The notes under the pieces: model-generated | The model's input: only the letters and a program-made list of their open reading frames with translations | Databases searched by the model: none | Told to the model about the DNA's origin: nothing | IMG/VR virus record: IMGVR_UViG_3300022745_000118 | Span: 1 to 31,713 of that record | DNA from: a virus | Direction: 5' to 3' (one strand) | DNA length: 31,713 nt | Program-made: the position numbers and the translations under genes | Shown: positions 1 through 18,402 of the stretch, one piece after another | Layout: every line of letters starts with the position of its first letter | Numbering within the stretch: the first letter of the stretch is position 1

Positions 1-1987
1 CTTCCTCGCTTGCGCCCCTGGTCCCATCGGGAAGCAGCAAGGGCGGCGTGTCGCTGCGCGCAGCCTCGGCTTTATGCAACCGGATACCAACCGAGCCGTC
101 GGGATGAAGCGCCGGCTCGAACTGGCCGGCTAGCTTGTTCTTGACAAGGTAGGACGCAGCTTCCCGCACCGATCCGAAACGCATCGAATTGCCCGAATCG
201 TCGACCGCGAACCCAGCCTCGTCGGCTGCATGGTAGATCGGGTCGTTGTGTCCCCATGTCTCGCCGGCGTAATCCTGCGCCGCTCCGGTCCCCGGCATCG
301 GCCCGGTGTACGGACCATTGGCGCCCCCGCTCTCGCCCGCCGCTTCACCGCCCCCTCCGCGGGCGCGGATCGCTTCGACACCAGCGCGAGCACCGCGCAC
401 GAAAGCCCCTGGCGTACGAGTAGCGCCATGCACCAGCTCTCCCGCCAGTGCACCCTCGAGCATGTTTTCCCCGACACCCTTGTAGAACGGCGTGTTCGGT
501 ACGCCGTTGGAGCTCTCCACCACGTTCGAGCCTACGCCCATCGCGCCTACGACACCGGCATTTCCAGTCATGCGGCCAGCGGCCCGGCCCACAGCCGTGG
601 CAATCCTGCTGGTGACGTTGATGCCGTACTTTTTAGCGACGCTGCCCCATATGCCGGCAAAAGTCTTCTCGCCGGGAATGAAACTCGCCCCGGCACTGAT
701 CGCCGCATTTTCAAGACCGGCATTCTGCGCCACGGCGCTGGCGGCGGCATCGGACATGCCGCGCTTCTTGGACGCCGCATACACAGCCTCGTAAGCCTCG
801 TCGTACCCCTGCTGGCCGAAGATGGCAGCACCCGCAATCGGGTTTATCGCTGCGGCTCCAAACGCCGGAACCATGCTCACTGCACCATGAACCACGCGCT
901 CTCCAAGCGTCGGGTTCTCCGGCATCGCGGCCTGCTCGGCAGCCGCCGCCACCGCTCCCCTCCTGTAGAACTTGTCGCGGACCTGATTTGCGCCCTGCTG
1001 GATCTGCTGCGGCGTGAGGTTCGGCGCCTTGTAACCCGCCGCCTCCGCCTGCGAGATAGTGCTCTGTACCGCGCCCGGCCCAAGGATCGAAATCGCCGAA
1101 CCGGCCGTACGTGCGATCGCGGCCTTGGCGCCATAATAACCGGCAACCGCGGACGAGCCGTAGTCCTTCAACGTCTGCCAAGTAGATTTCGGGACTTCCG
1201 GCGCAACCGGATCATTGCCCCAGTTGCTGCCATCATCAAACACGACAACCGGATCATTGCCCCAGTTGCCGTCGTTATTCGCCGCTCGAGCGGGGCGCTG
1301 GGCCTGCCTCCCGGGCGCAGCCGGCCCACCGGACCCGATGACCTTGTGCACGTAATTCTGTGTTTCGGCCGGAAGGAAATTGAACCACAGGGCCGGTGTT
1401 CCTGCCGCGGACGCACGCGCCATCGCGCCATAGACACCACGGCCGTAGCCTAGGTCGCCGGGACGAAGATGCGGGTTGCCGGGTCCGGCATTGTAGGCCG
1501 CCGCCGCCATCGCGTCGTTGTTGAACTTGCGACGCAGCGAATCGTAGTAGGCTTTTCCAGCCGCGATGTTCGCGTCCTTGTCGCTCGCAGCCTGCTGCGG
1601 CGTGACACCGGCCAACTTAGCGGCATACGCCAGTGTGTCCGGCATGAGTTGGGCCGGTCCCCACGCTCCCTTGGGGCTTCTCCTGAAACTGCCATCCTTG
1701 TTGATGCCGCCCTCGGCACCCAGGATCCGGTCATACGGGAGCGATCCTGTCGCGTAGTTCGCCCCGTCTATGCCGGCCGTTCCGACCGGGCCGACATTGC
1801 CACCATTGACCGGTGCGATCACCGGAGCGGCGTAGGGGTTGATCTTCGCGAATTCCGCCTCTTGCGCGGCCTTCTGTTCGTCTGTCAGTGGGGGCAGCGC
1901 ACCAGGATCAACGACGTTCGCATCCAGCACCGGGGCGTCCTGGCCCCAGTCCATTTGTGGCTGCAAGGAGTCGGCTTCGAGGTCCAC
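1..1987 (-). CDS. Virion protein with lytic transglycosylase (SLT) domain, partial
   Basis: Open frame that runs off the left edge, so only the first 662 residues are visible. Residues about 84-170 form a soluble-lytic-transglycosylase domain: the likely catalytic Glu92 in AEGG, then GPAQLMP (110-116) and AAYNAGPG (163-170). Such domains cut peptidoglycan so that phage DNA can cross the cell wall. The rest is Ala/Gly-rich with long helical stretches, as in large internal (ejection) virion proteins of podoviruses. The GTG start at 1987 follows a GGGA-type ribosome site and lies 15 bases after the previous stop in the same frame; an ATG at 1954 is the alternative. Residues about 245-268 hold a short tandem peptide repeat containing NWGNDPV twice. 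The SLT call is firm; the role in ejection rests on position and family knowledge. Confidence 0.85.
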   Translation of the reverse strand, partial: MDLEADSLQPQMDWGQDAPVLDANVVDPGALPPLTDEQKAAQEAEFAKINPYAAPVIAPVNGGNVGPVGTAGIDGANYATGSLPYDRILGAEGGINKDGSFRRSPKGAWGPAQLMPDTLAYAAKLAGVTPQQAASDKDANIAAGKAYYDSLRRKFNNDAMAAAAYNAGPGNPHLRPGDLGYGRGVYGAMARASAAGTPALWFNFLPAETQNYVHKVIGSGGPAAPGRQAQRPARAANNDGNWGNDPVVVFDDGSNWGNDPVAPEVPKSTWQTLKDYGSSAVAGYYGAKAAIARTAGSAISILGPGAVQSTISQAEAAGYKAPNLTPQQIQQGANQVRDKFYRRGAVAAAAEQAAMPENPTLGERVVHGAVSMVPAFGAAAINPIAGAAIFGQQGYDEAYEAVYAASKKRGMSDAAASAVAQNAGLENAAISAGASFIPGEKTFAGIWGSVAKKYGINVTSRIATAVGRAAGRMTGNAGVVGAMGVGSNVVESSNGVPNTPFYKGVGENMLEGALAGELVHGATRTPGAFVRGARAGVEAIRARGGGGEAAGESGGANGPYTGPMPGTGAAQDYAGETWGHNDPIYHAADEAGFAVDDSGNSMRFGSVREAASYLVKNKLAGQFEPALHPDGSVGIRLHKAEAARSDTPPLLLPDGTRGASEE
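1204..1269. repeat. Perfect 24-nt tandem direct repeat, 42-nt period
   Basis: Two identical 24-nt copies at 1204-1227 and 1246-1269, each reading CAACCGGATCATTGCC and on, spaced so that the coding frame is kept (14 residues). They encode two NWGNDPV units just after the transglycosylase domain, probably in a linker. Confidence 0.9.
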
Positions 1988-2002: not shown

Positions 2003-3802
2003 TCACTTCCTGGTCTTTGGAATTCCACCCTTGATACGCGGTTGGCCGTCCCGATCAATGTAGATGGAGCCATTCGGGTAACCGTAGACCTCGGCTTTCG
2101 ACCTCGGGACATAGGGGTTCTGCGGCGTTCCAATCTTCGCCGATCTGTCGAACGTCGCACCATTGAGCGGCTTGCCATTGACAAACGCTGCTGTCACCTG
2201 CCGTTGTACGGGAGAGTATTGGCCCTTATTCGGCGGTGCGCCGCCGCCGGGAACCCCGCCACCGCCACCCACTCCCGCGCCTGCGGCTGGGGCGAAGCCG
2301 GACAGTTCCTGTTCGATTTCAGCGGTGCGCTGGTTGACGTCGATCGGCGATTTCCCGGTGACCGGATCGCGGGTGTTGAATTGCTCGCGCAGCGCGGCGT
2401 TGTGCGCCGCGATAGCGACGCGCTGCGGATCCATCGGGCGCTGGCCAGCCGCCATCAATGCCGCCTCGCGCGGATCGACACCGGCGTCGATCAGCATCGC
2501 CTGCTTGGCCTGGGCGGTCATCGCCCCAGCGCTTGGCCGCGCGCCAGCCTGCACTCCGGTAACCGTCACCACCGGCTGCCCGGGTGCCGCATGCGCGTTG
2601 GTGATGATCAGATTGCCGTTCGCATCGACCTGGTTGGTCGAATACTGCGGCTCAGGGTTAGCCACCTTGGCGGCCTGCTCGTTCGCCGCCTCCTGGCCAC
2701 TGATCTTGTACCACGTCTGCACCGTGTTGGCCTTGATCAGCCCTACCGTCGCCCAGTCGATGTCAGGGGGTTTGGCCAGCATCTTGCGAGCTTCATCAAC
2801 CGGAACCACGCCATCATTCGCGAGCTGGGAGATACCGGTTTTCCATGCGCCGCGCGCTTCCGGGCTGTTGACCCCGTACTTGTTGGCCATCCACAGGAAC
2901 GCATTGGCAACCGATCCCACTTCGGACGCCTTGGCCTCGATCGCGGTCTTTTGCGCTGTGTTCATTGACTCGGTGGCGCGCGCAAGTTCCGCATATTCTT
3001 TTGGCGCATAGCGCTTAAGGTAGGCGATATTACCGGTCTGCTGGAACCTGAGTTGACCTTGGGATTCGACGTATGCCTTGGCCTTCTCGGGGAACAGGGC
3101 CGCATATTCGGCGAGGACCGGGTTGGCAGCGAGGTCATCAGCGGAAATTCCGCTTGCTCCTGCACCAGCGGGGGCAGCGGCAGGGGTGGCGAGCGGGCTC
3201 GATGCCGCCTGGCTTGATACAGCCTGGCTTGCAGCCCCCGCTGCCGCACTGGCACCAATCTTCTCGCGCCACGCCTTGAGGTTGTCGGCGCTGTAATGCC
3301 CGATGAACTGCTTTGCCGAAGGGTCGATATTGGACAGGCCATCCATCCGCTGGTCCCATGTCTCGGCTGCTTTCGGGTCGTTCGGATCGATCGACTGCAT
3401 CACCGTATCGACCATGGGGCTGATCAGCGGCGAAGTCTGCGGCGCGGCAGACGACTGCCACTGCGGGCCGTCGGCATCACCAATGGCCAGTTGCGACTGC
3501 GGCGCGGTCGGCGACGCCGACGCAAGCGACGATCCAGGCATTGCGGCACGCTGGCGCTGGAAGGCGGCCATTCGCTGACGCAGACCCCACTCGGCCATAT
3601 TCTGCATGTTGGCCAGGTTCGCGGCTGAGGCCTGCTCCTGGGTGTAATCCGCCTGCGCCTTGCGGTAACGAATCTCGTCCGGCATTGACGCGCGCGCCAG
3701 TTGCGACTGCGCCTGCGTCAGGTCAGCCGTGGCCTGCTGCTGCTCGAGCTCGGTCGGCGTCAGTGCGTCAAGCGCAATTTCCTGGCCGCTATAGCCCGCC
3801 AT
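2003..3802 (-). CDS. Probable internal virion (ejection) protein, unknown family
   Basis: A 599-residue Ala/Gln-rich protein that I cannot place in a named family. The N-terminal 100 residues are predicted helical, with many Gln and Ala (for example TPTELEQQQATADLTQAQ). The middle alternates helical stretches with Ala/Ser linkers. Around residues 520-540 there is a Gly/Pro-rich hinge (GGGGGVPGGG), followed by a basic C-terminus ending KTRK. It sits between the gp14-like protein and the transglycosylase protein, where podoviruses encode the proteins that form the ejection conduit. ATG at 3802 lies 13 nt after the upstream stop. Function is inferred from position only. Confidence 0.75.
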   Translation of the reverse strand: MAGYSGQEIALDALTPTELEQQQATADLTQAQSQLARASMPDEIRYRKAQADYTQEQASAANLANMQNMAEWGLRQRMAAFQRQRAAMPGSSLASASPTAPQSQLAIGDADGPQWQSSAAPQTSPLISPMVDTVMQSIDPNDPKAAETWDQRMDGLSNIDPSAKQFIGHYSADNLKAWREKIGASAAAGAASQAVSSQAASSPLATPAAAPAGAGASGISADDLAANPVLAEYAALFPEKAKAYVESQGQLRFQQTGNIAYLKRYAPKEYAELARATESMNTAQKTAIEAKASEVGSVANAFLWMANKYGVNSPEARGAWKTGISQLANDGVVPVDEARKMLAKPPDIDWATVGLIKANTVQTWYKISGQEAANEQAAKVANPEPQYSTNQVDANGNLIITNAHAAPGQPVVTVTGVQAGARPSAGAMTAQAKQAMLIDAGVDPREAALMAAGQRPMDPQRVAIAAHNAALREQFNTRDPVTGKSPIDVNQRTAEIEQELSGFAPAAGAGVGGGGGVPGGGAPPNKGQYSPVQRQVTAAFVNGKPLNGATFDRSAKIGTPQNPYVPRSKAEVYGYPNGSIYIDRDGQPRIKGGIPKTRK

Positions 3803-4126: not shown

Positions 4127-5011
4127 TTACCCGCCGGTTCCCGACAGCACATCACCGAAACTTCCGATCGGATTGCCCAATTGCGAGGTAAACCGGTTGA
4201 GGGCAGAACTGAAAATGTTGCCTTGGGCGATAGTGCCCGCAGCCGATGCCTGGCCTGCCGCAAGTTGCGATTGCGCAATTCCGTTCGCGGCCGTCGCACC
4301 ATTGTTGCCCGTCGTCGCAGCCGCGTTCTCGCCAAGCGAGGCGGCCGTGTTGAGTTCGCTCACGAACGGCTGCCAGACGCCGTTTAGCGCAAGCCCCTGC
4401 CCGTACGCCTGCGAATCCTTCAACTGCGCACCAGACAGCACCTGACCGCGCGCGGCAGCGCTGCGATCAAGCGCCTGCTGCCCCTGCGACAGCGCGAACT
4501 GGTAGCCCGGGAACTGCTCGAGCGCCGACGTGAGAGCGCCGAAATTCGGAACGCCTTGCGTCCCGCCACCTTGCAACGGCGTCGTGTTGACCGGATTGCC
4601 AAACCGCTGTCCCCCCACAAGGTTGGACGGCAGGTTGAACCCCGATAGCGACAGGCCCCCGGTCGATCCCGGACTGAGATTGCTGTAATCGCCGAAGCCG
4701 CCAATCCCGCCGAAGCCACCGTAGCTTGCCGATCCGCCATAGCCGGCTGGCGCGCCAATGGTCTGCGAATAGGATGGCTGCGAAGGACCGCCGAACCCGA
4801 AATAGTTGGCCAGCTGCGAAAAGGCATTGCTGCCCAGGGTGTTGTAGGGAAGCAGGTCAGACCGGGTCTGGTTGTACATCTGCAACTGCGTCTGCGCCGC
4901 GGTGTTCGCGGCGTCACGCTGCGCCTGCGAAGCACTCCCGGCCGCATTGGAGCCAACGACCGCGCTGCCGATCGTCGCGGCGGCGCCAACAGCGATTCCT
5001 GCCAGGCCCAT
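4127..5011 (-). CDS. Probable ejection protein with glycine-rich N-terminal membrane segment
   Basis: A 294-residue protein. Residues about 3-24 form a Gly/Ala-rich hydrophobic segment (LAGIAVGAAATIGSAVVGSN), followed by a polar helical region rich in Gln, Ala and Asn, and then Gly/Ser-rich repeats around 80-125 (GGSASYGGFGGIGGFG). A short glycine-zipper membrane segment followed by a long Gln/Ala coil is typical of podovirus DNA-transfer proteins of the P22 gp7/gp14/gp20 kind. The position next to the other internal virion genes agrees. The next gene upstream ends only 2 nt away. The family is inferred from composition and context. Confidence 0.7.
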   Translation of the reverse strand: MGLAGIAVGAAATIGSAVVGSNAAGSASQAQRDAANTAAQTQLQMYNQTRSDLLPYNTLGSNAFSQLANYFGFGGPSQPSYSQTIGAPAGYGGSASYGGFGGIGGFGDYSNLSPGSTGGLSLSGFNLPSNLVGGQRFGNPVNTTPLQGGGTQGVPNFGALTSALEQFPGYQFALSQGQQALDRSAAARGQVLSGAQLKDSQAYGQGLALNGVWQPFVSELNTAASLGENAAATTGNNGATAANGIAQSQLAAGQASAAGTIAQGNIFSSALNRFTSQLGNPIGSFGDVLSGTGG

Positions 5012-5013
5012 GG

Positions 5014-6084
5014 TTACGCCGCCTCCAGCGTGAGGCGGTGCACGGTGCCGAAGTCATCCGCGCCGAGCCGCCGATAGATTGTTCCAAGGCGCGGGCCAGA
5101 ACCACGCGGGCCAGCCTGCATGTTGAGATCGATCGGACCAACGCCGCGCTCCCGCAGCGCCCGAAGCGCCGCGCGCTGCAACTTCATCCCCAGCCCGGGC
5201 GCATCCGGCGAAGCGAAGAACGTCCCATGCGCGGCAAACGTGCGATCGCTCGATTCCAGCGATGGACCGATCACGGTCTGCAGGTAACCGAACATGCGCC
5301 CGTTCGCGCGCGCCGTGACGATCTGCATGGCGCCGGCCCGATCAAGACGGCGCAGGAGATCGAGGTTCTTGTTGACGTGGTTGCCAGGAGCCTCGCCTAC
5401 CTCCGTGAGATGGTCCTCAAACAGCTTCCTGCCGTCGCGATACCAATCGTCGAAACTCTCGACCTGGAACGTCATTCCATCGCAACCGACCGGCTCGTGA
5501 AGCGCAAGCCCGGTCAGTATGCGATGCTTTGCGATAGCCGCCAGCTTCTCGAGCGCAGGCATGTTCGCAATTACGTAGCGCATCATCGCGCGAAGATTGC
5601 ACTGCACGTTGACCCAGGCCAGTCGGCCCCAGTGCCCGCGGTCCCAGTCATAGGGAAGGCAATGCTCCCACACCGACCGGCACGTCGCCTCGTTCGCCAA
5701 ATCGTCGAAATTCACCGAAAGCACCGGTCGCCGAGCGGCAACCTGATCGAGCTTGCGGTCGACCGAGACCAATGCGCGCAAGGTGGCATCGGGATCGAGA
5801 TTGCACCCCGGGACACGCATGAGGCTGTTCCACGCATCCTTGACCGGGCGCCGCACGATCACGATGCGGGTGGTCGGCGCGAACGTGTCGATCAGGCGCC
5901 AGAATGGCGCTACGGCTGTCTCGGCCGAGCCGACATGCGGCTGGCTGCAAAAGGCGCGAACGTCATCGAGGCTGCGCCAGTGCCTGGCCTCCTCGTGGCC
6001 GCAGATATGGTCCCCATAGGTCAGGAACCGGGAAAGCCAAGCGGTGCGCGAGCGCGGCAGGGCAAGGATCAGGAAGTCGAGCAT
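5014..6084 (-). CDS. Sulfotransferase-like domain fused to GNAT acetyltransferase
   Basis: A 356-residue protein of two apparent enzyme domains. Residues 1-160 look like a P-loop sulfotransferase: FLILALPRSRTAWLS (4-18) fits the 5'-phosphosulfate loop, and RIVIVRRPVKDAWNSLM (73-89) fits the 3'-phosphate motif. Residues about 205-356 look like a GNAT acyltransferase: VTARANGRMFGYLQT (256-270) is a core strand pair, PGLGMKLQRAALRALRERG (296-314) the acetyl-CoA motif A region, and YRRLGADDFGTVHRLTL (337-353) the closing strands. Phages often carry either domain near tail genes; here they share one chain. ATG at 6084 overlaps the upstream stop (TGATG); a longer frame reaching 6288 is only out-of-frame reading of that gene. 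Substrates are unknown; virion or cell-surface modification is a guess. Confidence 0.8.
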   Translation of the reverse strand: MLDFLILALPRSRTAWLSRFLTYGDHICGHEEARHWRSLDDVRAFCSQPHVGSAETAVAPFWRLIDTFAPTTRIVIVRRPVKDAWNSLMRVPGCNLDPDATLRALVSVDRKLDQVAARRPVLSVNFDDLANEATCRSVWEHCLPYDWDRGHWGRLAWVNVQCNLRAMMRYVIANMPALEKLAAIAKHRILTGLALHEPVGCDGMTFQVESFDDWYRDGRKLFEDHLTEVGEAPGNHVNKNLDLLRRLDRAGAMQIVTARANGRMFGYLQTVIGPSLESSDRTFAAHGTFFASPDAPGLGMKLQRAALRALRERGVGPIDLNMQAGPRGSGPRLGTIYRRLGADDFGTVHRLTLEAA

Positions 6085-6416
6085 CAGCTGTTCACCGTGC
6101 CACTGGCGAACAGGTTGACCAGCGCCCCGGTCGCGGCAATCGCATAGATCTTGTCGCCAGGGTTCAGAATATGGCCGATGAGCGCAAACACCGGATAGAC
6201 CTCTCCCGGAAGCACCGTATGCTCGCAGATGACGTTGGAAGCCGCCACCGCGCCAGCATTCGGAACCCAGTTGATCGTGACCTTGCAAGCCGCATTCGCC
6301 AGCGCGTTGTAGAGCGTCACCGCGTCAAATGACGTGGCCGCAGTCGCCGTGAAGAACAGCGTCGACACGGCCGGAACGGCTTGAGGCTCGATCAGGGTTT
6401 GAAGCGAAGCAGTCAT
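6084..6416 (-). CDS. Small beta-rich virion-associated protein, unknown
   Basis: A 110-residue protein with alternating short beta-like segments (STLFFTATAATSFDAVTLYNA, KVTINWVP, VYPVFALIGHIL, DKIYAIAATGALVNLFASG). It has no signal peptide or membrane helix. An AGGAA ribosome site lies about 6 nt before the ATG, and the stop overlaps the start of the sulfotransferase-like gene by one base. It resembles small phage surface or fibre-associated proteins, but no family is recognised. Confidence 0.7.
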   Translation of the reverse strand: MTASLQTLIEPQAVPAVSTLFFTATAATSFDAVTLYNALANAACKVTINWVPNAGAVAASNVICEHTVLPGEVYPVFALIGHILNPGDKIYAIAATGALVNLFASGTVNS

Positions 6417-6530: not shown

Positions 6531-6607
6531 CGCTGGGTAGAGCAGCCAGGTAGCTCGTCAGGCTCATAACCCGAAGGTCGTGGGTTCAAATCCCACCCCA
6601 GCAACCA
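6531..6607 (+). tRNA. Initiator tRNA-fMet (anticodon CAT)
   Basis: A full 77-nt cloverleaf. The acceptor stem CGCTGGG / CCCAGCA has an unpaired C1:A72, the hallmark of bacterial initiators. The anticodon stem-loop contains GGGCTCATAACCCG-like sequence (here CAGGCTCATAACCCG) with anticodon CAT. The T arm is GTGGG-TTCAAAT-CCCAC, and discriminator A plus CCA are encoded. The D arm with GAGCAGCCAGGTAGCTCG matches the conserved tRNA-fMet form. It lies on the plus strand, opposite to every protein gene, 2 nt before the 3' end of the gene at 6610. Confidence 0.95.
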
Positions 6608-6609
6608 CC

Positions 6610-7278
6610 TTAGATCGGTACTTCTTCCCAGAGCAGCCGGCCATGCACGCTGATCGTGGTGGTCGACACGGTATTGAGCAGCGCGAGAATGCCGCCCGGC
6701 GGCACCACGATGCTGCCATCGAGGTTGTCGGTGTAGCTGACCGTCGGCGTCTGGATCGCCGTCGACACCGCCGCCGTGGTGATGACCGTCGGGGTTGGGA
6801 AATCCGCCGAATGCGCTACGACAAGGTTGTTGGTAAGACCGGTCAGCGCCACGCCGGCGAGGCCCTTGCATTTGGCCGCCGCGCCACCGAGAAAGCGCGG
6901 GAGCGGCACCGAGCCGGTGCTGAGCCCGACGTTCTGCGTCGAGGTCGCCCACACGAAGATGCCGGGGCCGGTGGATGCGGCGTTATTGATGCCACTCGCC
7001 AGCATCGCCTGAAGAATGACCGCGTTCACGCCCGACCCAAGAGGATTGTACACCCCGAGAATCGGTGTCGTCGTCGCCGTCAGCGTGATCGTGTTGGCCG
7101 AAAGCGCCGTGAGACCGGTCAAGCCGTTGGAGAACAGGTTGCCGCGGAACGCCTGCTCGTAGAACCGTCCGTGCAGTTCGCTGACCATGGCCTCACCCTG
7201 TCGTCCGAAACGCTGGGTGATTTGGGCCGCGCCATCGGGCTGGTTCTGGACCCCGACATCTCCCTGAACTGATGGCAT
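6610..7278 (-). CDS. Virion protein of unknown role, beta-rich
   Basis: A 222-residue protein. The N-terminus is polar and helical (residues 1-50, including GRFYEQAFRGNLFSN), followed by a long beta-rich region full of Thr, Val and Leu (ALSANTITLTATTTPILGVYN). The C-terminus ends with strands and WEEVPI. An AAAGGAAA ribosome site precedes the ATG. The protein type recurs in podoviruses with gp10-like hubs, in the tail or decoration gene set, but I know no assigned function. The antisense tRNA-fMet ends 2 nt from its stop. Confidence 0.75.
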   Translation of the reverse strand: MPSVQGDVGVQNQPDGAAQITQRFGRQGEAMVSELHGRFYEQAFRGNLFSNGLTGLTALSANTITLTATTTPILGVYNPLGSGVNAVILQAMLASGINNAASTGPGIFVWATSTQNVGLSTGSVPLPRFLGGAAAKCKGLAGVALTGLTNNLVVAHSADFPTPTVITTAAVSTAIQTPTVSYTDNLDGSIVVPPGGILALLNTVSTTTISVHGRLLWEEVPI

Positions 7279-8857: not shown

Positions 8858-10255
8858 CTACATGCCCAGGCTCAGGTCGCCATAGGCCCCTATGATCGTC
8901 CGCGGCACCGGGTCGGTGATGATGAGTTGCCACGACATCTGGCGGCCCTGTCCCTGTCCCATCCATCGCAGGCGCTTTGTCGTCTCCCCGATCTTCCCCA
9001 TCGACCGCCACATCTGCGCATGCGACCAATTGACGCCCCCGTCGGTCGATCGACGCAACATGACTTGCGGATCGCTGCCGGAGCCGTCGCCAACGCCAGC
9101 CTGAATGTCGATCTCGAAGCGCGAGCAGTAGACGCGCTTGCGGTCCTTGTGCTGGTCCAGCGTCTGGATCAGACCCCGGATCGGATTGCCGAACTCGGTG
9201 TAGGTGTACCAGTCCTGCCTGCCGATGTCGCCGCTTAGCGAATCGCCGAAGTAGACGTCGTCGTAAACCATGAGCACGGTCGAAACGCGCCACATGCCGA
9301 GCCGATTGAACGATTCGTCGACCGAGTCGCGTTCGTGCCATTTGCCTGTGGAGATGTCGAAGATGATCGATCGATCCGCGCCGGGCATGCTCAGGCTGAC
9401 AAACTTGTGCCCTTCCCACGACCACGCCATCGAAAAGGCGTCGGTAATCTGGGTCGCATCCTCGATCACATGCTCGACCGGGTGCGTCGATACGCGCAAC
9501 GGGGTGTTGGCCTGCAACCGGTAATACGTGTGGTCCGAGCCCAGGAAGAAGATCGCGCCGTCGAGCTTGACGATCGTGAAGGGCGAGATGCACCCATAAT
9601 TGACGATTCCGCCGGTGTAGCGCTGGAACGGGAAATTCGCGGTCCCCGCATCGTACCAAATCTCGATGTGATCGGTGCAGAAGATGAACAGCAACTGGAG
9701 GTTCTGCACCGTCGCGACGACATAGCCCGGCTCGCCTTCGGCGCTCGCAAAGTCGAGGCCATTGAAGGTCAGCCCATCATACAGCGCAGACAGGAACCAT
9801 TCGTTGGTTCCGGCCCGGTCGAAGATGAAATAGCCGTCCATGAATGTGACGGTGTTTGCCGGATAGAACGCTGGCGCCGTGATCTGCACCAGGCCGCCGC
9901 TGATCGAGTATATCCAGCCGGCGGCGCCATTGACGATGCACAACTGCGAACCGTTGTCGGCCATGCTCACGCGACCGGATCCGGTAATGCCGGTGCCAAC
10001 CTCGGTCACCACGCCGGTCGAACTGACCGAGTAGAGCGAGGTTCCCGACACGACGTACTGCACGCCCAGGAACTTCCATGCCCCGCGGTGCGCAGTGCCC
10101 GCCGTTGCTGACACGCTGGCACCAGGAACACCGAACAGCGGAGCCTGTCCCTTCGCCTCGGGTGGCTGGCGCTCGACGAAGAAATTGACCAGCGTGCCGT
10201 TCGACAACTGCGGCGAACGGCTGACTGCAAATTCTGTGGAGAGAATGACGTCCAT
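8858..10255 (-). CDS. P22 gp10-like tail hub (packaged DNA stabilisation protein)
   Basis: A 465-residue protein, close to the roughly 470 residues of P22 gp10. The N-terminus (NFFVERQPPEAKGQAPLFGVPG) and the AWKFLGVQYVVSGTSLYSV segment at about 59-77 match the family of phage stabilisation proteins. Repeated beta-propeller-like strands follow (WEGHKFVSLSMPGADRSIIFD). In P22, gp10 binds the gp4 adaptor and plugs the portal channel so DNA stays in the head. The gp4-like gene lies directly upstream, giving the P22 order. It stands with the strongest functional calls in the window. Confidence 0.88.
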   Translation of the reverse strand: MDVILSTEFAVSRSPQLSNGTLVNFFVERQPPEAKGQAPLFGVPGASVSATAGTAHRGAWKFLGVQYVVSGTSLYSVSSTGVVTEVGTGITGSGRVSMADNGSQLCIVNGAAGWIYSISGGLVQITAPAFYPANTVTFMDGYFIFDRAGTNEWFLSALYDGLTFNGLDFASAEGEPGYVVATVQNLQLLFIFCTDHIEIWYDAGTANFPFQRYTGGIVNYGCISPFTIVKLDGAIFFLGSDHTYYRLQANTPLRVSTHPVEHVIEDATQITDAFSMAWSWEGHKFVSLSMPGADRSIIFDISTGKWHERDSVDESFNRLGMWRVSTVLMVYDDVYFGDSLSGDIGRQDWYTYTEFGNPIRGLIQTLDQHKDRKRVYCSRFEIDIQAGVGDGSGSDPQVMLRRSTDGGVNWSHAQMWRSMGKIGETTKRLRWMGQGQGRQMSWQLIITDPVPRTIIGAYGDLSLGM

Positions 10256-16599: not shown

Positions 16600-16673
16600 T
16601 GGAGCCAGTAGTAGGAATCGAACCCACGTCGTCGTCTTACGAAAGCGCTGCTCTGCCATTGAGCTATACCGGC
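16600..16673 (-). tRNA. tRNA-Thr (anticodon CGT)
   Basis: A 74-nt cloverleaf. Acceptor GCCGGTA / TACTGGC (one G:T), D arm TAGCTC...GAGC, anticodon loop TTCGTAA with anticodon CGT, T arm GTGGG-TTCGATT-CCTAC, discriminator T, and CCA encoded. The anticodon stem is weak (a C:A and a G:A mismatch beside three pairs including a wobble). It reads ACG codons, and lies 4 nt after tRNA-Gly. Confidence 0.88.
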
Positions 16674-16677
16674 ACGG

Positions 16678-16752
16678 TGGAGCGGCGTGCGGGAATCGAA
16701 CCCGCCTCGTTGGCTTGGAAGGCCTCGGCCCTCCCAGAGAGACCAACGCCGC
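16678..16752 (-). tRNA. tRNA-Gly (anticodon TCC)
   Basis: A 75-nt cloverleaf. Acceptor GCGGCGT / ACGCCGC fully paired, anticodon loop CTTCCAA with anticodon TCC, T arm GCGGG-TTCGATT-CCCGC, discriminator T, and CCA encoded. The anticodon stem shows only three G:C pairs next to two mismatches. It reads GGA codons, which are rare in this GC-rich sequence. Confidence 0.88.
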
Positions 16753-16842: not shown

Positions 16843-17763
16843 TCAGACGCCCGGCGTGCCGAACCAGCTGCGCCAGTCGGTGACGCCGCAGCTAAAGCGC
16901 ATGTACTGCGCCGCCTTGGCGTTGCGGGTGTCAAACTCGTTGTCGGTGTCGAACATCGGCTTGTCGCGCCACAGGAAGCGCGAGCCGTACGGCGCGTTGG
17001 TCCGAATGTACCACGCCGTGCTCGAGGTCAGGTAGTGGTTCACCTTGATCCCGTCCGGGAACATGCCCGATGCCTTGATCACGTTCACCGCGTTGTTGGC
17101 GGTGTCGTTCTGGAGCACTGAGTTGATGATCCGGTTGGCATCGAACCAGTTGGGCGGCGAGATGCCCAGCGCCTTGGGGATCAGGCTGATCTTGTTGCCG
17201 CGGTAGTCCGTGGCCTGCATGATCTGGATGCCAAGATCCTCGATCGCCGTTTCCGAAAGGTCGGCCGACGTGTTCAGGAGATTCGACTGGTTGCCCGAAA
17301 TGGTCGGGTGCGAAGCCGAGATGAACGCCTGACCGTCGCCGATCGGATAGGACGAGTTGAACGCCTGGTTGAACACGTTGGCGCCCACGATTTCCTCGGT
17401 CTGCCGCCCGGCAAACGCCAGCATCGCCGCGCGGCGCTTCGAGACGACCTCGTAGAGGTTATCGCGCAGTTCCTCGTAGGTGACGATGTAGCCGCCCGCA
17501 TAGGCAACGTGGGTGTAGCGCGTGACCGCGCCCTGGACCTCGGTATCGTAGTTGAGCGCGGCCCCTTGATCCTTCTCGCGAAGCACGCCGAACCCGGAGA
17601 TTTCGACGTCCTCCTCGTAAGCCTTGTCCGACGTCTCGACGTCGAACCAGTCGGGGTATTCCTGCTCGTGCTCGGTGTACTGGCGCCCCCACCAGTTCTT
17701 GATTCCGGGCCAGAGTGCCCGCGGGTGTGCGCCAGTCGTGATGACGCCGCCGACAGTGGACAT
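16843..17763 (-). CDS. Major capsid protein
   Basis: A 306-residue protein of the Mu gpT-like HK97-fold head protein type. Typical stretches: ALWPGIKNWWGRQYTEHEQE (16-35), KAYEEDVEISGFGVLREKD (47-65), ALNYDTEVQGAVTRYTHVAY (69-88), EELRDNLYEVVSKRRAAMLA (97-116) and GDGQAFISASHPTISGNQSN near 143-162. It has no long pro-region of its own; a separate scaffold gene lies upstream. GAGGAG lies 8 nt before the ATG. The terminator after it fits very high expression. At 306 residues it is much shorter than the P22 coat (430), so head and tail modules have different ancestry. Confidence 0.88.
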   Translation of the reverse strand: MSTVGGVITTGAHPRALWPGIKNWWGRQYTEHEQEYPDWFDVETSDKAYEEDVEISGFGVLREKDQGAALNYDTEVQGAVTRYTHVAYAGGYIVTYEELRDNLYEVVSKRRAAMLAFAGRQTEEIVGANVFNQAFNSSYPIGDGQAFISASHPTISGNQSNLLNTSADLSETAIEDLGIQIMQATDYRGNKISLIPKALGISPPNWFDANRIINSVLQNDTANNAVNVIKASGMFPDGIKVNHYLTSSTAWYIRTNAPYGSRFLWRDKPMFDTDNEFDTRNAKAAQYMRFSCGVTDWRSWFGTPGV

Positions 17764-17790
17764 GGTTGTAACTCCTCGTTTGGCGGGCGA

Positions 17791-18402
17791 TCAGACGCCG
17801 GTGGTGGACCAGAGCTGCGGCAGGTTGAGGCGAACCGCCCACTTGCAGTTCGTGCCGATGGCATTGTCCGGACCCCGGATCGTGCCAAGCAGGCGCAACT
17901 GGAAGGTGGTGTTCGCGCTCGACGAGACGCCCGACGACTGCAGCTGGAAACCGGAGAACCCGGTGACCGTGCTGCCGGTGCCAGACACCAGGTTGCCGTT
18001 GGCAAAACCGCCGGTCGCCGCCGCGATGGCGCCGCTCACGCTGTCCTCCTGGATCGCGTAGACCTGGTTGGGATCATCGCAGATGATGCCGTAGTTCAGC
18101 AGCGACGCCTGCCGGTAGACCGGAAGGTCTCGGGTGATCGTCGCGGCCGTGACGCCTCCCTGCGCGGGTCCGTTGCTGATGCCGATCAGCGAGCCGAGAA
18201 CGACGTTGCCGGCGCCGGCGGTCGCAATGCCGCAGAGCGGAACGCCGAATGCATCGGTGCCGCCCAGCGCCACGATCGGGTCGCCGAGAAAGATGTTGGA
18301 ACTCTGCGAGGCGGGAAACGCGACAAGCCGGCCCTGGCCGGACCACGGCGTGCCGTTATCGTTGATCGGGCGCAGCCCGAAAGGGGTGTTTGCGTTTGCC
18401 AT
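17791..18402 (-). CDS. Capsid-associated protein, probable decoration protein
   Basis: A 203-residue protein beginning MANANTPFGLRPINDNGTPW, a start shared by many phage proteins encoded next to gpT-like capsid genes. The rest is beta-rich and Gly/Ala/Ser-rich (GDPIVALGGTDAFGVPLCGI, NTTFQLRLLGTIRGPDNAIG). It is probably a surface or trimer-axis decoration protein; this rests on gene order. An AGGA site lies about 9 nt before the ATG. The stop is followed within 30 nt by the capsid start. Confidence 0.75.
   Translation of the reverse strand: MANANTPFGLRPINDNGTPWSGQGRLVAFPASQSSNIFLGDPIVALGGTDAFGVPLCGIATAGAGNVVLGSLIGISNGPAQGGVTAATITRDLPVYRQASLLNYGIICDDPNQVYAIQEDSVSGAIAAATGGFANGNLVSGTGSTVTGFSGFQLQSSGVSSSANTTFQLRLLGTIRGPDNAIGTNCKWAVRLNLPQLWSTTGV

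Follow-up and report, generated by a model that had tools for sequence, protein, structure and literature searches.

Background

The first-injected proteins of short-tailed phages are essential and poorly understood, and we know of no established biochemical role for the gene that lies just before the ejection genes, be it that for P22 gp14, T7 gp13 or an acetyltransferase of the GNAT type. In both model phages this slot directly precedes the first ejection protein, i.e. the order is 14-7 in P22 and 13-14 in T7, and the products of P22 gene 14 (DUF2824) and T7 gene 13 are annotated as head morphogenesis/virion stability factor and internal virion protein, respectively. In cobaviruses, a GNAT gene adjoins the genes of internal virion proteins; it has been likened to T7 gp13, for which a role in virion morphogenesis has been suggested (PMC6775973).

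Both domain families treated here, as well as the location of GNAT genes beside ejection genes, are already known. As far as the literature and databases were searched, there is no description of the fused form presented below, of how widely it occurs in uncultivated phages or of what the slot that it occupies contains, and a phrase search of the paper collection covered found no phage sulfotransferases.

The fusion gene and its surroundings

The window, i.e. the whole stretch of DNA analysed, represents an uncultivated virus in a record of 31.7 kb. It can be assigned to a short-tailed phage by its genes for portal, terminase, capsid, head closure (P22 gp10 family) and gp7-type ejection protein. 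A frame of 356 aa runs from an ATG at 6084 to the stop at 5014–5016 on the minus strand, which the sequence-only reading had left unspecified, and contains no internal stop. That reading had proposed a sulfotransferase-like and a GNAT domain in a single frame, had pointed out the motifs LPRSRTAW and VRRPVKDAWNSLM, and had placed the gene in a virion operon. Both domains and both motifs are indeed found in the uninterrupted frame, and the setting is as proposed, with a DNA-ejection gene directly downstream, beginning 2 nt past the fusion stop, and the head-closure gene Hc3 upstream (Table 1). Family searches gave no informative match for the product of 2003..3802.

Table 1. Features of the fusion gene and its neighbours in the window, with residue numbers referring to the 356-aa protein
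Feature	Coordinates	Strand	Evidence
Fusion gene, sulfotransferase-fold domain plus GNAT domain, 356 aa	5014..6084	-	Open frame, relatives, dN/dS
PAPS-sulfotransferase-fold domain, residues 1-194	5503..6084	-	PHROG 10855, Sulfotransfer_3, AlphaFold2 fold match
5'-phosphosulfate-loop-like motif LPRSRTAW, residues 9-16	6037..6060	-	P10, R11, R13, W16 in 29/29 clusters
H30, candidate catalytic residue	5995..5997	-	Invariant in 29/29 clusters and all N-domain alignment rows
3'-phosphate-site-like motif R79-x7-S87, residues 78-88	5821..5853	-	R79, S87 in 29/29 clusters
Linker, residues 195-203	5476..5502	-	Low-confidence; pLDDT under 50 at 195-197
GNAT domain, residues 204-356	5017..5475	-	PHROG 1249, GNAT structure matches
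GNAT motif-A loop SPDAPGLGMKLQR, residues 292-304	5173..5211	-	G299 and R304 in 29/29, G297 in 27/29 clusters
Upstream neighbour, small 110-aa gene	6084..6416	-	No family match; 1-nt overlap with fusion start (TGATG)
Head closure Hc3 (P22 gp10 family)	8858..10255	-	PHROG 578, E 1.5e-100; P22 gp10 matches same family
Downstream neighbour, P22 gp7-type DNA-ejection protein	4127..5011	-	PHROG 598, E 1.3e-29; P22 gp7 matches same family
Probable second ejection protein (P22 gp20 position)	2003..3802	-	Position only
Probable third ejection protein, SLT lytic transglycosylase domain, cut by window end	2..1987	-	Pfam SLT, E 1.8e-7

Several tRNA genes lie among the virion genes. A tRNA-Met (CAT) at 6531-6607 on the plus strand, i.e. 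antisense inside the minus-strand virion operon and just upstream of the fusion gene, fills the gap between the genes 6610-7278 and 6084-6416; an antisense tRNA in a late operon is odd. Tandem tRNA-Gly (TCC) and tRNA-Thr (CGT) genes (16600-16752, minus strand) are located just downstream of the capsid gene (16843-17763), and the pairing of this capsid gene with an adjoining gene for an unknown 203-aa protein (PHROG 37556; 16843-18402 for both, minus strand) recurs in L020, L075 and L089.

Relatives and distribution

Protein searches found at least 87 full-length or nearly full-length single-frame relatives, 48–59 % identical to the window protein, a set that includes near-duplicates, one contig taken twice and a few sequences truncated at contig ends. 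Clustering at 90 % identity gave at least 28 clusters besides the window, i.e. 29 with the window included. A second scan confirmed 271 matches, of which the best 80 were taken, and the fusion family is therefore larger than 87. A relative of the small 110-aa gene is present at the same position in 11 of the 28 cluster representatives, and its product is a candidate partner or substrate of the fusion protein.

The relatives of the fusion come from uncultivated viral contigs and from two metagenome-assembled genomes (MAGs), i.e. a Sphingomonas bin and a Beijerinckiaceae bin. The family is thus common in uncultivated phages and is absent as a fusion from the INPHARED phage records searched, none of the 50,697 covering 80 % of the protein. 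A plasmid search likewise gave no match to the fusion protein. A survey of the family of one MAG and the order of the other, with approximately 400 genomes for each, found no fused copy beyond the two known MAGs, which suggests that the fusion is carried mainly by viruses and is not a common prophage gene. In genome G349, which belongs to the same family as the Sphingomonas MAG, a relative of the GNAT half occurs as a stand-alone protein (L223, E 1.8e-10).

Within two groups of relatives, dN/dS was 0.09–0.11 for the N half and 0.06–0.07 for the C half, and both halves are therefore under purifying selection.

Two folds in one chain

AlphaFold2 modelled the full chain with a pLDDT of 84 and a pTM of 0.54, values that, for a predicted structure, fit two domains on a flexible linker. 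The fold search with the full chain tested the GNAT half alone; the N half (residues 1-198) was therefore predicted and searched separately, with a pLDDT of 93.4 and a pTM of 0.88. Structure comparison of these models took the N half to sulfotransferases and the C half to GNATs, in agreement with the two domains claimed beforehand, and, judged on folds and motifs, the protein is not a single fold and does not appear to lack ligand pockets. Neither NCBIfam nor phmmer against the PDB with the single window sequence as query gave a useful match.

The best 24 of the 50 rows returned for the N half were all sulfotransferases (Z 11.9–10.1, 153–165 residues aligned), solved sulfotransferases are weak sequence matches to this domain (best E 0.005), and residues 1-164 match PHROG 10855 (E 1.6e-12). 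Classical sulfotransferases carry a 5' loop of the form P[KR]SGT, a 3'-phosphate site of the form R-x7-S, and H or E as catalytic base. P10, R11, R13, W16, H30, E55, T56, R79 and S87 are invariant in all 29 clusters of the fusion family; S12 is present in 28 of them and T/S14 is kept, while R13 replaces the G of the loop throughout (29/29). R79 and S87, eight residues apart, fit the 3'-phosphate site of PAPS enzymes, and R11-S12-T/S14 may correspond to the 5' loop, from which R13 in place of glycine departs. The position of H30, directly followed by E/D31, can be likened to that of the catalytic residues of TPST/SULT enzymes, and going by this position it may play the same role.

For the C half, the PHROG 1249 acetyltransferase profile matches window residues 233-351 (E 0.008) and 28 of the 31 family members (best 2e-6). 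Nearly all fold rows over residues 200-356, among the matches listed, are named acetyltransferases; they include AAC(3), HPA2 and DpA (8a9o; Z 15.4, rmsd 2.8, 143 residues). Of GNAT motif A, [RQ]-x-x-G-x-[GA], the R/Q position varies among the 29 clusters, and in the sister clade with L095 and L103 the glycines of the loop are replaced. Therefore, some members may be weak catalysts or have lost activity.

The slot before the ejection gene

Among 80 fusion loci with enough flanking sequence, many of them near-duplicates, the gp7-type ejection gene starts at most 2 nt from the fusion stop in 71 and at most 9 nt in 72. A census started from ejection genes instead (80 loci, reduced to 57 non-redundant ones) showed a GNAT only in 31 loci, the fused form in nine, an overlapping split pair in one and neither domain in 16, proportions that are not those of all podophages, the query being the ejection gene from fusion-bearing phages. 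A sulfotransferase-like domain alone occupied the slot in none of the 57 loci. Our data therefore suggest that the slot normally holds a GNAT and that the N-terminal domain is best read as an addition. The factor is not required with every gp7-type ejection gene, since in over a quarter of the census loci the DNA examined contains neither of the two domains.

The GNAT half was considered as a homologue of P22 gp14 and T7 gp13, but this was rejected, with an hhalign probability of 0.2 % for each and a shallow profile for P22 gp14; the likeness to these proteins is thus an analogy of position. In one related locus, the frame that occupies the place before the gp7-type gene (L233:1965-2900) weakly matches the T7 gp13 family (PHROG 308, E 0.0025).

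Possible function

Judging from the slot, the putative targets are more likely to be virion or ejection proteins, and the reading that we tentatively prefer, at somewhat short of an even chance, is that of a late-expressed putative modifying or assembly factor for these proteins. Such a factor would be expressed along with the virion proteins, its translation being coupled to that of its neighbours, and would act during particle assembly on the ejection apparatus or tail, with PAPS and acyl-CoA as its probable ligands. The GNAT domain would carry out the ancestral job of the slot, perhaps the one that P22 gp14 or T7 gp13 performs there, and the added N-terminal domain might bind PAPS and sulfate a virion protein or a small group attached to one. 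We count in favour of this reading both folds, the invariant R11, R79 and S87, purifying selection on both halves, the slot position together with the census, and the stand-alone GNAT of phage PfAn1 (see below). Against it stand R13 in the 5' loop, where the classical loop has G, the variable R/Q position of motif A together with the replaced glycines of L095 and L103, the census loci with neither domain, and the location of other phage sulfotransferase-like genes in early/metabolic modules.

The latter genes, i.e. the N-domain alone in Pseudomonas and Stenotrophomonas phages, would also suit a modifier directed at the host, which would have glycans on the host surface, or a host factor, as substrates for both sulfation and acetylation in superinfection exclusion or counter-defence and would owe merely its late expression to the virion operon. 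The invariant PAPS-like motifs are in line with this idea, and regulation of host metabolism has been suggested for a phage GNAT (PMC6918029). However, adjacency to the ejection gene is fixed across many lineages and the slot also occurs with a GNAT only, while a cargo gene would be expected to move, and we therefore consider a host target unlikely. It is similarly doubtful that the protein is catalytically inert, with the GNAT fold serving a structural purpose in assembly and the sulfotransferase fold acting as a ligand sensor or docking module. While the slot shared with P22 gp14 and T7 gp13 and the degenerate R/Q position of motif A, more so in L095 and L103, could be explained in this way, R11, R79 and S87 have stayed invariant in 29 clusters despite approximately 50 % identity elsewhere, which fits a retained ligand site, and homology to gp14 or gp13 was not detected.

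To return to a factor acting on the phage's own particle, it appears rather improbable that it is a putative bifunctional modifier, both sulfating and acetylating ejection or tail proteins during assembly; if true, this would be, to our knowledge, the first viral protein sulfotransferase acting on the virion.

A nucleotide kinase or NTP hydrolase is the less likely identity of the N-terminal domain compared with a sulfotransferase, and we give it little credence. Relatives are annotated as 'putative nucleotide triphosphate hydrolase' in some phage records, and small kinases come next after the sulfotransferases in the fold list, from Z 10.1. On the other hand, the leading fold rows are exclusively sulfotransferases, the R...S motif is invariant, and the sequence has no lysine loop of the Walker A type (GxxxxGK[ST]). 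Moreover, although the window protein on its own matches none of the Pfam sulfotransferase families, Sulfotransfer_3 matches 16 of the 31 family members at E values up to 1 (best 1.1e-6) and Sulfotransfer_4 matches 11 of them. Finally, an artefact, i.e. a two-gene read-through, an assembly error or a chance ORF, can practically be dismissed, since in spite of the split pairs in four records (L095, L103, L104 and L230) the frame is single and stop-free in 29 diverged clusters with low dN/dS.

Comparison with known systems

The two domains had been described beforehand as better known apart, and a search for split and fused homologues bore this out with both layouts, i.e. N-only and C-only phage genes as well as adjacent overlapping genes, the latter in the same domain order in each of the four records. 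With the C-domain as query the split-form search gave three records, and with the single N-domain of L095 as query it gave none. L105 belongs to the clade of the split pairs and is fused, and therefore at least one fusion or fission took place within this clade. Programmed frameshifting was considered for the split pairs, but in L230 an AAGGAG site precedes the start of the GNAT gene, a sequence feature that favours separate initiation of the split gene.

Compared with PAPS-dependent sulfotransferases (Sulfotransfer_3 and Sulfotransfer_4, e.g. tyrosylprotein sulfotransferases, the olefin synthase ST domain 4gox and SgdX2), the fusion protein has in common the predicted fold of residues 1-166 and the R11/R79/S87 pattern. 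It differs in its loop, PRSR[TS] rather than P[KR]SGT, and in having a compact domain of approximately 190 aa fused to a GNAT. Sequence relatives of this domain are the phage proteins of PHROG 10855 and PHROG 38824 ('hydrolase'), which are about 23–37 % identical to it where they align. They stand alone outside the virion operon in the annotated phages examined, in contrast to the fusion within it: the N-only genes of Pseudomonas and Stenotrophomonas phages lie in their early/metabolic modules away from virion genes, and another N-only gene was found in a marine virus without annotation.

With P22 gp14 and T7 gp13, the fusion shares the slot, and both are similar in size to its GNAT half. A natural fusion adding a PAPS-type domain to the GNAT of this slot ties the slot to sulfur-donor chemistry, and it makes a testable prediction, i.e. 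sulfated or acetylated virion proteins.

The closest counterparts of the C half are the GNATs of phage structural modules (PHROG 1249; PfAn1 XRX11817.1, Vibrio NVP1209O_22, cobavirus pc40 and the Roseobacter CRP-4 GNAT), which match in fold and profile. In PfAn1 and Vibrio phages, C-only genes are located among the structural genes, and their profile aligned with the C half of the fusion at an hhalign probability of 99.2. The PfAn1 GNAT even occupies the same place, directly before a gp7-type ejection gene, as do those of cobaviruses by their authors' account. Whereas these phage GNATs stand alone, the GNAT of the fusion follows a sulfotransferase-fold domain of 200 residues within one polypeptide.
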